From Deltaproteobacteria bacterium (GTDB taxonomy: Bacteria > Myxococcota > XYA12-FULL-58-9 > JABJBS01), in the NCBI GenBank assembly GCA_018668695.1, contig JABJBS010000247.1, positions 1 to 32,782 on the forward strand: a DNA stretch of 32,782 bases, in the 5' to 3' direction. How positions within the stretch are numbered: the first letter of the stretch is position 1; each line of letters opens with the position of its first letter. The position numbers and the translations under genes are program-made. Below the pieces are notes generated by a model, which ran no database searches, had not been told where the DNA came from, and saw only the letters and a list, made by a program, of their open reading frames with translations. Positions 8,376-14,888 of the stretch are shown here, piece after piece.

Positions 8376-8909
8376 TCAGCGACGGTGCAACTCGTAGTTG
8401 TGCCACGCCTTCTTTGACTCTTCTAAATCCGACTTGAGATCTTTGCAGTCTTCATCGCTTTCAAGCAACGAAGCATCAATCTTCTCAATAAGCCCAACCA
8501 GGGCATCGCCCATCTCAACACTTGCTCGCACAAGTGTCTCCAGGCGGACCGTGACCGGTTCGAAGATATAATCTTCTACCTCAAGTTCGGTTCCTTCAAA
8601 GAGGCTTATTTCAACGCCACCACCAGCAGGCATAAATGCAAAGCACTGTTCGCTGTTGCGAAATGGAATCGTTTCCGAGTCCCCTGCGATGATCCATTGA
8701 AGTTTTCGTAGCCATTGACCAGCCAAGCGTATCAGCGGTTCGCTGTAATCACCTGAGTCTTTAACGGCTGAAGTAGCGACGAGAATCCGACCTTCCTCGC
8801 GTACAATGTCCGCAAGTTTGTCCTGATGAGATTCAAAGTCACTGGCCAGCGTTTCAACGGTGAAGCGCTGGTCGTCCAATTCAAATTCTAAATTTAGTTG
8901 AAATTCCAT
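8376..8909 (-). CDS. Hypothetical protein, 177 aa
   Basis: I do not recognise this family. The product starts MEFQLNLEFELDDQRF, a beta-rich opening, and continues as a mixed alpha/beta acidic protein with two Trp-containing helices (LAGQWLRKLQWIIAG). The C-terminal 60 residues, from about 117, are strongly helical and charged (LVGLIEKIDASLLESDEDCKD, then LEESKKAWHNYELHRR) and may form a coiled coil. There is no signal peptide or membrane segment. The codon pattern and the clean frame support a real gene. It lies 92 bases upstream of lysC on the same strand, so they might be co-transcribed, but nothing links them in function. Confidence 0.65.
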   Translation of the reverse strand: MEFQLNLEFELDDQRFTVETLASDFESHQDKLADIVREEGRILVATSAVKDSGDYSEPLIRLAGQWLRKLQWIIAGDSETIPFRNSEQCFAFMPAGGGVEISLFEGTELEVEDYIFEPVTVRLETLVRASVEMGDALVGLIEKIDASLLESDEDCKDLKSDLEESKKAWHNYELHRR

Positions 8910-9006: not shown

Positions 9007-10194
9007 CTAGAGCGGGTCTTTAAAGGCCGCTTCTTCCTCTAAATAAAGAGTTTTCATGCGAGATAACGCCCTTTCCAATTGGATAAGCCAGCTTTCGCTA
9101 CTTTGAAGCCTTTTCCCCAATTTTAAAGATTTTTCGTAAATCCGGATGGCCTTTTTGAGTAATACAATCACCTTTCGGCGCACTTCCTCGTCATAAAGCT
9201 CTATCTGGTCTTCGCTTAGCTCCTCGGGAGGCTCAAAAGAAACGATGGTTTGATAAAGGTCCTCGTATAAATCACCCAATCGGTAACCAGCAGCGGCCAT
9301 GGTGTGGCCGTCACCAAATCGAATCGAACGCAGGTAGCGATTTTGAGCCGTCAGTAAAAATCCACACTTGGTTTCAAGCCGCTCTCGTAGCAGTTCAATA
9401 GGGTAGCTTAATTCCACCGCCTCATATTTTTTCCGCGTCATTTCCCCGAGGCGAAAAGCTGCTTCTGCAGCCATCGTCCTGTCGCCGCCGATTCCTCGTT
9501 GCAAACGTCGATAAAGACTTAAAACTCTTGAATAAGCAGACTCAGCCAAAGTGGTTTCACCAGCTCCCTCGAAGGTAATCCCCTTGCCCAGCTGAATTTC
9601 CATCCGGTCTTGCTCATCAATCCACTCTAAACTGACAAGATTCTCAAAAGCGTAAACCGCGTCCCACCAGCGTTCGAGCTTGGCAAAGCAGACCCCCAAA
9701 CGCATAAACGTATCAAAATAAAGCTGGTCCTCGTCGATTGGCATTCCATCGTAGAGCTTAATCACCTGCTCATAGTACCCAATGGCCTCAGCCCACTTTT
9801 CTTTGTCTTCATGAAGCATACCAAGGTTGAAGAGACTCACCTGCTGGTAATCCACATTATCAAACTCTTCAATCAGCTTCTTATAAAGTACAATCGCAAG
9901 CGCCGACTCCTTACGGCGCTCGGCTTCCCCAGCGAGATGAAAAAGCCTTGGGGCATCGTATACCTTTTCTAGAATAATGGGGTCCGGAGTCATGCGGATG
10001 ACGGTTCCCGGCATCGATATTTTTTGCACACCTGCGGGGCCTGAATGAACTCGCGACCGAGTTTGAGTCGTCGCACAGCCCCAAAGCGTTGCCAGCAAAC
10101 AGCAAATCGTCATGATATGAAAACAGGGTTGAGCCGGCACTTTTTGGAAGTGTTTAAAGCCTGTAGCTAGGGATTTGCTGAAAGAGTCGGTCAT
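9007..10194 (-). CDS. TPR-repeat lipoprotein
   Basis: Near the start is a lipoprotein signal: a basic stretch (FKHFQK), a hydrophobic run and the lipobox LWGC, so the mature protein would be lipidated on that Cys. The rest is a helical repeat protein with several TPR units, such as FHLAGEAERRKESALAIVLY, VSLFNLGMLHEDKEKWAEAI, TFMRLGVCFAKLERWWDAVY and a later YRLGDLYEDLY. Start choice is uncertain: an in-frame TTG at 10242 has a purine-rich GAAGTGA before it, while the ATG at 10194 gives a more normal signal length; the ATG is preferred. It follows the UDG gene by at most 60 bases and is probably in its operon. An envelope-assembly or scaffold role is inferred from the fold class only. Confidence 0.82.
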   Translation of the reverse strand: MTDSFSKSLATGFKHFQKVPAQPCFHIMTICCLLATLWGCATTQTRSRVHSGPAGVQKISMPGTVIRMTPDPIILEKVYDAPRLFHLAGEAERRKESALAIVLYKKLIEEFDNVDYQQVSLFNLGMLHEDKEKWAEAIGYYEQVIKLYDGMPIDEDQLYFDTFMRLGVCFAKLERWWDAVYAFENLVSLEWIDEQDRMEIQLGKGITFEGAGETTLAESAYSRVLSLYRRLQRGIGGDRTMAAEAAFRLGEMTRKKYEAVELSYPIELLRERLETKCGFLLTAQNRYLRSIRFGDGHTMAAAGYRLGDLYEDLYQTIVSFEPPEELSEDQIELYDEEVRRKVIVLLKKAIRIYEKSLKLGKRLQSSESWLIQLERALSRMKTLYLEEEAAFKDPL

Positions 10195-10252
10195 CGAGAC
10201 GACTGTATCGCCAGACTCGGTAAACCCCAAATCAGAGTTCAATCACTTCGTG

Positions 10253-11065
10253 CTATGAACCGGGCCGCTTTAAACCGAGGCGGTGCATGACAACCTGAAG
10301 ATCCATCCAAACAGGTTTCTTTTTAGCAGCATCACGTAAAAGCTCGTTGGGATGAAAAGTTGGCATCACAGCCACGCCCTCAGACTCACACCACTGCCCT
10401 CGCATCTTAGAAATCGGCGTGTTGTCACCGAGTAAGAGCTCGGTCGCGAATTCCCCGAAAGTCACAATCACTTCTGGACGAATCACATCTATCTGTTGGC
10501 TTAGGACCGCTTTACAAGCGTCTGGTGAGACCGACTCAGTCTGATTTTGGCGAGCGCGCCGCCGTTTCACAACATTTGTAAGGTACACGTCAGAGCGCTC
10601 AAGGCCCATGGCTTGAATCATCTTCGTTAAGAGATCTCCGGCCGGTCCCACAAAGGGTTCACCCAAAAGCTCTACATCTCGTCTTGGTGCCTCGCCTACA
10701 AACATCAATCGCGCATTCGGATTACCCGCTCCTAAGACCAAATTACTTTGAGCTTGATGCAGTGGGCTGAGCTTGGAATCGCCGGATTGCCCGGAGCTTG
10801 CGACCGCCGAGTCGTTTTGACCAGGCAGCTTAGCACCGCCTTTTAGCATGCGAGCCAGCTCTTCTCGGGCTTGCTCAGGAGCCGAGCCGTGGCTTCCCCC
10901 CAGACTTCCAACTTCAGCTTCCGCCGGCGATGCACTCGACCGAGCTTTTCGAGGCCTTAAAACTTTGTCGTCGATTTCGAGTGCTTGCAAACCAAGCTCA
11001 CGCTGAAACACCAACGCTTCACGTAGGTCGCTCAACAGCGAATGCACCATGGCTTGTTCACTCAT
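10253..11065 (-). CDS. Uracil-DNA glycosylase, family 4-like, lacking most Fe-S cysteines
   Basis: The C-terminal two thirds match family 4 (UDGa-type) uracil-DNA glycosylases, which remove uracil from DNA in base excision repair. Seen are [20 protein letters not shown] (124-143), [10 protein letters not shown] (158-167), the core [18 protein letters not shown] and the late motif TFHPNELLR (236-244). The first 95 residues are a low-complexity extension. Family 4 enzymes normally hold a 4Fe-4S cluster with four Cys: a CxxC before PLH, one in KCRPP and one further on. Here these read SKLS (S97, S100), KRRRA (R168) and C184, so only the last remains. Cluster loss, and perhaps altered activity, is therefore likely. 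The ATG overlaps the previous gene by 8 bases. Confidence 0.85.
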
Positions 11066-12263: not shown

Positions 12264-14888
12264 ATGAACACTCCAAGCCCGCAGAGCTCTCAGCCATCAA
12301 CCGAGCCCAGTGATGCACCCATGATGCACACACGGTACAGTAAAATTCTTCAATGGTTCTTCGGCCGTCTTTTCGATGGCATTGATTATCCCCAGCAGTC
12401 CGCTGACGAAATCAACGCACTGGCCAAAGATGGCATTGTCGTTTACGTGGCAAGAGCACCCTCCGCGTGGCTCTACCTTTACCTAAACCACGCACTGCGA
12501 AAGTTAGGGCTTCCCCTGGCGCAATATGTTGCTGGATTTAGCTTCGTACTCTGGCAACCCATCAGTAAGCTTTGGCGCTGGTGGCTTAAGCGAAGCGACC
12601 CGCCCAACGGACCTTGGCGTGAGAGCTATCAATCATCGACACCTGGTGCTGAAGAAGCTCGCTACGCAGACGCAGTATTAAGAGGACAAACTTCCTTTCT
12701 GATGCTGCAACCCAGAAGCGGTATCAAAATGCGACGCAAAGGAGGCCCCAATAACTTCGTGCGGGCTCTCGTTGCAGTTCAGCGTGTTATCGACAAACCG
12801 ATTTATATTATTCCACACGTTCTCACCGACCGAGCATTCAGTGGTTCTACCGGCAAACTGGCCAAGCGGATTTTTGGCGGTCGCCGTCAACCTGGGTCAC
12901 TTCGAGAGATGGCAATACGCGTATCTACGCTGAAAACAGCCACCATCCGCACCGGTACCGTGGTCAACCTACAAGAGTTTTTAAACGGCCAAGAAGAGGC
13001 CGAGGATTTAAAACTCGCTCGTAAGCTAAGCCATGAACTCAGTAAACGCCTCACCGAAGAAGAGCGCGTGATTGCCGGACCTGAAATTCCAGATCACGAA
13101 ACTATGGCGCGTCACGTATTGCGAGAACCCTTTCTTCGAGATGTCATTCGGGATGAGGCCAAACGCTCCGGCCGTACCGAGGCAGCGATTGAGAAACGAG
13201 CCGGGTCTTACGTCAAAGAAATTGCCGCCCGCTACAACGTCAACATGCTTCGCTTTTTAGAGGGCATGATTTCAATCTTGTTCAACCGGATTTACGACGG
13301 CGTTTACTTTGACTCCGAAGGCTACGCCAAGCTCACAGAAGCTGCGCGTAAAGGGCCACTTATCTTTTGCCCATGTCATAGAAGCCACGTGGATTACCTG
13401 GCCCTCTCCCACACTCTCTGGCGCAATGGCATGATGCCTCCTCATATTGCTGCCGGCATCAACCTCTCATTTTTTCCAATGGGATTGATATTCCGAGGTT
13501 GCGGAGCCTTCTTCCTTAGACGATCGTTTCGAGACAACGCACTCTACGGTGCCGTGTTCAAAGCCTATATGTATGAGGTTCTGCACACGGGTATCTCCAT
13601 CGAGTTTTTCCTTGAAGGAACCCGAACGAGAACCGGCAAGCTTCTCATGCCACGATACGGACTTCTCAATATGGTTGTCGACGCTTGGCGCCGAGGGGCC
13701 CAGGAAGACCTTCAATTCATTCCCGTCTCCATTGATTACGAAAAAATTATCGAGGCTGGCTCTTATGCTCGCGAGCTTCGCGGCGGCGAAAAGAAAAAAG
13801 AAGATATGGGTGCTTTGCTTCGCACCACCGGCGTACTTCGCTCTCGATATGGACGGCTTCATCTTCAATTTGGTGAACCGCTATCGATGCGTGAATTCGC
13901 AGAAAAATCGGACTTGGAGCAAAGTGCAGACCAGAGTCACGATGAGAGCTGGCGCAAGGGCGTCCAGCGGCTGGGCTTTGATATTCTCCATCGTATCTCT
14001 AAAGCATGCACAGTGACGCCAACAACCATTGCTGCCACAGTGCTCTTGAATCACCATGGCCGAGGTATTTCTCAATCAAGCCTCACCGAACAAAGTCAGT
14101 GGATGCTAGAATTTCTCGACGAAGAGTCCGCTCGGTTCTCGTCTCCTCTTCAGCACCAAGCAACACGCGAGGCTGCCGTTCTCGAGGCTGTCGAAAAGCT
14201 GGTTGATGATGGCACCGTTTCGGTTGAGCGTCCTGGGCGCGGCGACGCCGAACCTATTTACTATGTTTCTGAAGACCACCGAGTTGAGCTTGATTTCCCC
14301 AAGAATCAGAGCATCAACCACTTTGCACCATCGGCACTTATCGCGCGATGCCTCCTTAGAGACGATAAAGAAGAGGCTTCCTATGACGATGTTAAGGCGG
14401 GCGCAGATTTACTCTCGTCTATCTTCAAGCGTGAATTCGTTTTTCGAACCGATGTAAACTTCGATGTTGCATTTGACGAATGCCTCGCAACGCTTGCCGC
14501 GCGCGGTTACCTTGATGTCACTGAAAACAACACCATCATCATGCGTAATAAAGAGAAGCTGGCCCTACTCTCAGGTTTCTTAGATAGCTTCGTGGAGGCC
14601 TATTGGGCAACTCTTGGAGCGGTCACCGAGCTGCGCCGCTTCCCGCTCTGGGAAAAAGAACTAACAAACCGAGCGCTTGAGCAAACACGCCGAGCTTTCC
14701 TTGAAGGCAAACTCAAAAGACCTGAGGCAGCCAACAAGACCTTGATTGGGTCGGCTCTTAGCTGGCTGCAGGATAAGAAAGTTATCGTCATCCATGGCGG
14801 CGACAAGAAGCGCACCATCGCACTTAGCGAGGCTTACGCAGGACCAGAGCTCGATGCTCTCCAGGAAACTCTAAGCCGTTTTCTCTAG
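12264..14888 (+). CDS. plsB: Glycerol-3-phosphate acyltransferase
   Basis: The 874-residue protein matches E. coli PlsB (807 aa), the inner-membrane-associated enzyme that acylates the sn-1 position of glycerol-3-phosphate to begin phospholipid synthesis. The acyltransferase motifs are all present: block I HRSHVDY (372-378, catalytic His372 and Asp377), GAFFLRRSF (414-422), block III EGTRTRTG (451-458) and block IV IPVSIDY (486-492). The extended signature AAGINLSFFPMG and the ELRGGEKKKE segment are also PlsB-like. The N-terminal 330 residues include the PlsB-type GIVVYVARAPSAWLYLYLNH; residues 540-874 form the C-terminal helical part. It probably shares an operon with the cNMP-binding gene upstream. 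The last 18 bases overlap a convergent gene. Confidence 0.95.
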   Translation: MNTPSPQSSQPSTEPSDAPMMHTRYSKILQWFFGRLFDGIDYPQQSADEINALAKDGIVVYVARAPSAWLYLYLNHALRKLGLPLAQYVAGFSFVLWQPISKLWRWWLKRSDPPNGPWRESYQSSTPGAEEARYADAVLRGQTSFLMLQPRSGIKMRRKGGPNNFVRALVAVQRVIDKPIYIIPHVLTDRAFSGSTGKLAKRIFGGRRQPGSLREMAIRVSTLKTATIRTGTVVNLQEFLNGQEEAEDLKLARKLSHELSKRLTEEERVIAGPEIPDHETMARHVLREPFLRDVIRDEAKRSGRTEAAIEKRAGSYVKEIAARYNVNMLRFLEGMISILFNRIYDGVYFDSEGYAKLTEAARKGPLIFCPCHRSHVDYLALSHTLWRNGMMPPHIAAGINLSFFPMGLIFRGCGAFFLRRSFRDNALYGAVFKAYMYEVLHTGISIEFFLEGTRTRTGKLLMPRYGLLNMVVDAWRRGAQEDLQFIPVSIDYEKIIEAGSYARELRGGEKKKEDMGALLRTTGVLRSRYGRLHLQFGEPLSMREFAEKSDLEQSADQSHDESWRKGVQRLGFDILHRISKACTVTPTTIAATVLLNHHGRGISQSSLTEQSQWMLEFLDEESARFSSPLQHQATREAAVLEAVEKLVDDGTVSVERPGRGDAEPIYYVSEDHRVELDFPKNQSINHFAPSALIARCLLRDDKEEASYDDVKAGADLLSSIFKREFVFRTDVNFDVAFDECLATLAARGYLDVTENNTIIMRNKEKLALLSGFLDSFVEAYWATLGAVTELRRFPLWEKELTNRALEQTRRAFLEGKLKRPEAANKTLIGSALSWLQDKKVIVIHGGDKKRTIALSEAYAGPELDALQETLSRFL

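Follow-up and report, generated by a model that had tools for sequence, protein, structure and literature searches.

The locus and its glycosylase gene

The window, i.e. the whole stretch of 32,782 nucleotides that was analysed, comes from a bacterium of the phylum Myxococcota and carries an open reading frame for a uracil-DNA glycosylase (UDG). This gene and its neighbours are listed here together with their presence near the UDG in seven other genomes of the same order, counts in which some of the compared stretches stop at contig edges.

7123–8283, minus strand: aspartate kinase (Pfam and NCBIfam matches), near the UDG in 5 of 7 order relatives
8376–8909, minus strand: protein of 177 aa with no Pfam or NCBIfam match, in 6 of 7 order relatives
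9007–10242, minus strand: TPR protein (TPR models), in 4 of 7 order relatives
10253–11065, minus strand: UDG open reading frame, 270 aa
11795–12211, plus strand: cNMP-binding protein, 138 aa (PF00027), next to the UDG in 7 of 7 order relatives
12264–14888, plus strand: glycerol-3-phosphate acyltransferase (PF19277, PF01553), in 7 of 7 order relatives

In a Pfam profile search the UDG matches PF03167 at 5.9e-31, and with the family 4 UDG model TIGR00758 it scores 153.2 bits, above the cut-off of 125.3. Its closest solved relative according to phmmer is the UDGa of T. thermophilus (1ui0, 2.4e-35). The predicted structure has the family 4 fold, the top Foldseek matches being 1ui1, 1ui0 and 1l9g with E values from 8.3e-18 (1ui1) to 9.2e-17. 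Profile score, fold and a motif B with the catalytic His (H238) are all those of family 4. The complete set of four Cys ligands of the [4Fe-4S] cluster and the motif A GE(A/G)PG with the thymine-gate Glu are absent. Since these are two defining features, we do not file the protein as a canonical family 4 enzyme; judged from its sequence, it is a descendant of that family.

The cNMP-binding protein and the glycerol-3-phosphate acyltransferase adjoin the UDG in all seven other genomes of the order. Because the closest neighbour genes are the same, the UDG of the window must be the orthologue of the UDGs found there, and the synteny rules out horizontal gain of an odd paralogue. The family 4 UDGs (UDG4) of the order relatives have Cys in all four ligand columns (CCCC) and canonical cluster and motif columns as far as the sequence extends (the copy of genome G007 runs off its contig past the fourth ligand). 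Loss of the ligands has therefore occurred in the lineage of the window.

A phage origin of the gene was also considered and rejected, as a scan of viral contigs with the window UDG gave no relative. Phage matches in an annotated collection amount to 53 records, and the 15 that are listed are 24–34% identical to the window UDG. No PADLOC family (library of 2023) matches it, and a role in anti-phage defence was rejected on this ground. The 138-aa cNMP-binding protein matches the Pycsar TIR-effector models of PADLOC (best 5.1e-21) through its cNMP domain only, which we take as a shared sensor domain. The Pfam match of the aspartate kinase covers the kinase domain only, with no ACT domain model at 1e-3.

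Loss of the cluster ligands

The features of the UDG are given below from the N- to the C-terminus of the protein; Tth denotes T. thermophilus UDGa.

10964–11044, minus strand: conserved N-terminal helix region, residues 8–34, shared with other bacterial family 4 UDGs and not of low complexity
10784–10960, minus strand: low-complexity linker, residues 36–94, mostly disordered (pLDDT <50 at 40–61 and 77–99)
10766–10777, minus strand: SKLS, residues 97–100, replacing the CxxC of the [4Fe-4S] site (alignments)
10637–10696, minus strand: motif A region, residues 124–143, with G128R, E131V (Tth E47, thymine gate) and D132E; E125 and F138 kept
10574–10576, minus strand: N164 (Tth N80), the uracil-contacting Asn, kept (alignments)
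10505–10564, minus strand: loop that carries the third and fourth ligand positions, residues 168–187, KCRPPxNR changed to KRRRARQN, with R168 in place of Cys and Q173 in place of Tth N89
10514–10516, minus strand: C184, sole remaining cluster ligand (alignments)
10334–10354, minus strand: motif B HPNELLR, residues 238–244, with H238 (Tth H155) and R244 retained and NE in place of AY

The four ligand columns are occupied by S97, S100, R168 and C184, both in phmmer alignments with solved family 4 UDGs and in MAFFT alignments with relatives, which rules out misaligned cysteine columns. The corresponding codons are TCC at 10775–10777 (S97), CGG at 10562–10564 (R168) and TGT at 10514–10516 (C184). 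The whole protein has two Cys, the second being C226. A sequence-only reading of this DNA had named the same residues, with C184 as the only ligand left, and the alignments bear it out; by codon position its interval 10514–10777 is exactly S97 to C184. It had also suggested that the cluster was abandoned while the enzyme was retained. This agrees with our data: the ligands are gone, the loops are of low confidence in a model whose canonical control is confident, the frame is open and the core is conserved. With three of four ligands gone and both anchored loops rewritten, the [4Fe-4S] cluster has, on the evidence of the sequence, been abandoned, and there is good support for its loss from a gene that was itself retained.

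How rare is such a loss? In the phylum-wide search a UDG match was found in 188 of 195 genomes, own genome included, and the residues discussed come from among the matches listed. Ligand columns were counted for 70 phylum relatives, out of 72 other genomes with a match (G032 and G025 are outside the count), and the residues were also read in eight further matches of the phylum, including that of G025, whose sequence ends before motif A. Of the 70, 66 are CCCC, two are CCSC and two are highly diverged sequences of family f14 that lack three or four ligands. In pairwise alignment one of the latter (G028) retains the fourth ligand only and the other (G015) none; with 67.8 and 52.9 bits, respectively, both fall below the TIGR00758 cut-off. 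Among named genome hits (80 of 572), 75 are CCCC, two CCSC, two CCDC and one SCCC. These were found through the motif A pattern GE[GA]PGx[DE]ED and are thus biased to canonical motif A; they partly overlap the phylum set, and motif A variants that also lack the second pattern of the scan escape it. The third ligand is Ser or Asp in 6 of the 150 rows, and KSRPP or KDRPP at this site with an otherwise canonical ligand set is seen in several bacteria. Three lost ligands combined with an otherwise recognisable family 4 core occur, among the phylum and named rows, in the window UDG only. A cellular family 4 UDG with three ligands lost was not found in the open-access literature that was searched.

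Changes in the active site

The changes are not confined to the cluster. Motif A reads GEAPR, Val stands where Tth has the Glu that blocks thymine (E47), Gln stands where it has the Asn that positions the water (N89), and KCRPP has become KRRRA. In the alignment to 1ui0, Tth E41 corresponds to E125, G42 to A126, G44 to R128, E47 to V131, F54 to F138, N80 to N164, K83 to K167, N89 to Q173 and H155 to H238. E125, F138, N164, K167, H238 and R244 are kept; motif 3 thus has the Asn equivalent to Tth N80, while Q173 stands at the N89 position. G128R, E131V, D132E, P170R, P171A, N173Q and Y241E all fall in columns that are at least 95% identical in 67 relatives, and the window UDG deviates at 18 of the 62 such columns. 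The sequence-only reading, in which the remaining motifs were kept, holds for the core, N164, H238 and R244; it fails for motif A (GEAPR, E131V), the KCRPPxN loop and Y241E. As the alignments have it, residues that contact the base and assist the leaving group are kept, and what has been lost is the C5 gate and the Asn that positions the water.

Published mutants help to weigh these changes. According to PMC5387724, the pocket of T. thermophilus UDGa consists of E41, G42, E47, F54, N80 and H155, with thymine blocked by E47. The k2/Km of 2.4e5 falls to 2.0e3 in E47A (about 120-fold), to 3.5e4 in N89A (about 7-fold) and to 9.4e1 in H155S (PMC5387724). For Cys-to-Ser mutants of the family 4 UDGs from P. 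furiosus and A. fulgidus, PMC5295032 puts the drop in activity at only 40%, so losing the cluster would not by itself have to inactivate the enzyme. The literature searched offered no studied equivalent of G128R, and this substitution could block the pocket outright. A study by Engstrom (2012), the title of which reportedly concerns the cluster loop, was weighed against our best explanation.

N-terminus and predicted structure

The first 35 or so residues form a conserved helix region that is present in all seven order relatives; among 144 upstream regions of family 4 UDGs, 28 show it at z>3. In the model a helix spans residues 3–23 and the N-terminal block has pLDDT values of 82–90. A 95-residue low-complexity N-terminus, as read earlier from the sequence, was therefore mostly a misreading, and only the linker after the helix region is of low complexity and disordered. 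The AlphaFold2 model, built from 51 rows, shows a family 4 core and has pLDDT <50 at residues 40–61, 77–99 and 174–176. As a control, the domain alone of a canonical Anaeromyxobacter protein, folded from the same 51 rows, has a mean pLDDT of 97.4 and no residue below 70. The predicted structure thus loses confidence at the former cluster segments, in part owing to the lower similarity of the window UDG to the other rows.

Rate and distribution of the changes

Branches of the UDG were measured on a species tree built from five neighbouring genes, with the G007 copy included. The tip branch of the window UDG is 1.007 substitutions per site, as compared to 0.150–0.374 in the seven order relatives, or some four times the average of the latter. 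Taken together, the five neighbour genes have a tip branch of 0.63 against a mean of 0.52, a ratio of about 1.2. This genome accounts for 0.358 of the UDG tree and for 0.107–0.269 of the trees of the five neighbour genes, shares that are not strictly comparable since the neighbour-gene trees span five to eight genomes. The highest neighbour share belongs to the TPR protein (five genomes only), and its branch here is also long (1.179).

Among columns invariant in six order orthologues (the G007 copy left out), 27 of 88 are changed in the window UDG; when each relative is left out in turn, the number is 2–11 of 90–99. The changes are concentrated in the cluster loops, where 13 of 18 invariant columns are changed (3/4 in residues 95–106 and 10/14 in 168–190); in the rest of the protein the figure is 14 of 70 (Fisher p = 5e-5, or 7e-4 without the three Cys). 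Residues 144–158 and 246–265 are untouched, with 0 of 8 invariant columns changed in each.

The frame is open and the GC content by codon position resembles that of the neighbouring genes. In a neutral simulation (substitutions only, 400 runs per level), 18.5% of the runs with 20 amino-acid replacements in the domain stayed free of stop codons, as did 1.5% of those with 37, 1.5% with 50 and none with 70; the level of 37 is the deficit that follows from an identity of 51.5% against a mean of 73.4% over 170 columns. The open frame together with the local conservation argues against free drift; it is not proof, as no relative nearer than the order level was found.

Other repair enzymes of the genome

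The genome, which is 98.6% complete, was searched for a second, canonical UDG. Its one further PF03167 match is a SMUG1 (family 3; 3.3e-84 against the G. metallireducens SMUG1), and neither another family 4 enzyme nor a family 1 Ung was found. SMUG1 homologues occur in four of the seven order relatives, all with a canonical UDG4, so the presence of SMUG1 does not by itself explain the change in the UDG. It may permit it.

An organism-wide loss of Fe-S repair proteins found no support: the weaker of the two Nth-model hits in the genome, which we take to be a MutY-like protein, keeps C-x6-C-x2-C-x5-C. Endonuclease III (Nth) lacks the fourth cluster Cys (C-x9-C-x2-C) in this genome and in G003, and is of the usual C-x6-C-x2-C-x5-C type in the other six order genomes. 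Note that the UDG4 of G003 is canonical.

Parallel cases in the phylum

Two other groups of the phylum have altered UDG4 homologues. In genus g87 of family f30 (G189–G191) the four Cys are kept and the PFVG part of motif A is gone; N164 is replaced by Asp in two of the three genomes and the motif B His is kept. For the three pairs in this genus, dN/dS (NG86, computed on stop-to-stop frames) is 0.33/1.03, 0.51/1.38 and 0.51/1.25, with dS near saturation. In family f14 (G021, G028, G015) motif A is ruined in all and the erosion is uneven: G021 keeps the Cys but carries N164A and H238D, and the other two keep the motif B His. In each of these six genomes, which are incomplete (59–96%), the UDG4 homologue is the only PF03167 match. 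The UDG4 of a further genome, G188, matches as two separate pieces and is either split or interrupted.

Comparison with known systems

T. thermophilus UDGa (1ui0/1ui1) shares with the window UDG the fold, the profile score and the equivalents of E41, F54, N80, K83 and H155. The window UDG differs from it by the missing CxxC, Arg in place of the third Cys, the replacements E47V, N89Q and G44R and the lost KCRPP loop. The f14 homologue of G028, like the window UDG, has just the fourth ligand left in pairwise alignment, but its motif A is ruined and its profile score is below the cut-off. In SPO1-type phage DNA polymerases, such as that of phage phi18, the UDG-like domain at the N-terminus is family 4-like and has none of the four Cys; it is fused to a phage DNA polymerase, has no GE(A/G)PG and is 28% identical. 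A phage UDG annotated as family 4 (MW462191.1) has, by hand alignment, one CxxC Cys and the third ligand replaced, but for catalysis it has the canonical motifs GEAPGREED, PPGNR and HPAYLLR. The anti-phage glycosylases Brig1 and Brig3 are likened to the window UDG, itself without a PADLOC match, by description; they are UDG-superfamily enzymes with changed specificity for 5-substituted cytosines according to PMC11078745 and PMC13160076.

Discussion

We consider it an even chance that the window UDG is a cluster-free, weakened glycosylase derived from family 4, with a loosened C5 side of the base pocket. Inherited vertically, the family 4 UDG of this lineage has, to judge from the sequence, dropped its [4Fe-4S] cluster. 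What it retains is the alpha/beta core, the Arg of motif B and the base pocket (Tth E41, F54, N80, K83 and H155), so DNA binding, and flipping or cleavage of a base by the His/Asn mechanism, most likely persist. As judged from the T. thermophilus mutants, the replacement of E47 by Val, of N89 by Gln and of the GEAPG Gly by Arg should strongly cut uracil excision, and the same changes should remove the side chain that excludes bases of the size of thymine. The SMUG1 of the same genome probably fills the housekeeping role. A cluster-free UDG, an enzyme with changed specificity and a non-catalytic relative were the three possibilities raised by the sequence-only reading; the set was the right one, and its interpretation is supported in part, as the active-site motifs have changed too.

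The main rival is a pseudoenzyme without excision of any base, maintained because it binds DNA or contacts a protein through the N-terminal helix and the conserved C-terminal half, a reading that we regard as possible but on balance unlikely. G128R and the rewritten loop could abolish catalysis, and in genus g87 and family f14 a UDG4 homologue with a ruined motif A persists as an open gene and is the sole PF03167 match in each of six genomes. Nevertheless, all six pocket and motif residues named above as retained, from E125 to R244, are kept in the window UDG. The parallel cases are themselves ambiguous: five of the six g87 and f14 homologues retain the motif B His and may thus not be fully dead, and dS in g87 is near saturation. 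Moreover, the g87 and f14 loci have no other gene of the window, and neither do two canonical UDG4 loci, so that a common second role does not follow from them.

A relaxed gene on its way to becoming a pseudogene, tolerated as SMUG1 removes uracil, seems rather improbable to us. The long tip branch and the presence of SMUG1 are what such a gene would be expected to show, but the changes are strongly localised, residues 246–265 are intact at invariant columns, the frame is open despite the odds in the neutral simulation and codon-position GC is like that of the neighbours. A recent relaxation after a period of adaptation is conceivable.

It is very improbable that unusual ligands (S97, S100, H103, C184, C226 or a partner protein) still hold a cluster: swaps of a single ligand exist in nature, as at the third site in the rows described, but here three ligands are replaced together, one of them by Arg, both loops are rewritten and there are two Cys in all. 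A UdgX-like function, in which the basic KRRRAR loop would crosslink the protein to abasic DNA, can hardly be credited either. UdgX of M. smegmatis is close to family 4 and has its KRRIH loop where the window UDG is altered (PMC10359453). Yet UdgX carries a 4Fe-4S cluster (PMC10359453), motif A here is GEAPR and not GEQPG, KRRRARQN stands in place of KRRIH and has no His at the nucleophile position (Q173), and the TIGR03914 score of 116.1 bits lies below the cut-off of 189.95, on which UdgX identity was rejected.

Apart from the weakened, cluster-free glycosylase that we prefer for the window itself, a wider reading concerns the phylum. The lineage of the window has lost the cluster, g87 has lost motif A and f14 both to differing degrees, and all keep an open gene, the N-terminal helix and the C-terminal half. 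From this pattern it could be argued, though we hold it doubtful, that the family 4 UDG of this phylum has a second job, independent of catalysis, that outlives the cluster or the active site, and that the freed scaffold in the window, with its C5 gate opened, may have acquired a new base specificity.

The role of the iron-sulfur cluster in some uracil glycosylases is disputed, as it is seen either as a structural holder of loops or as a redox sensor. The natural loss of the cluster at a locus where relatives of the order keep it is a natural test of the changes in loops and pocket and of the residual activity. Lineages without motif A but with the ligands would separate the functions of the cluster from those of the active site.
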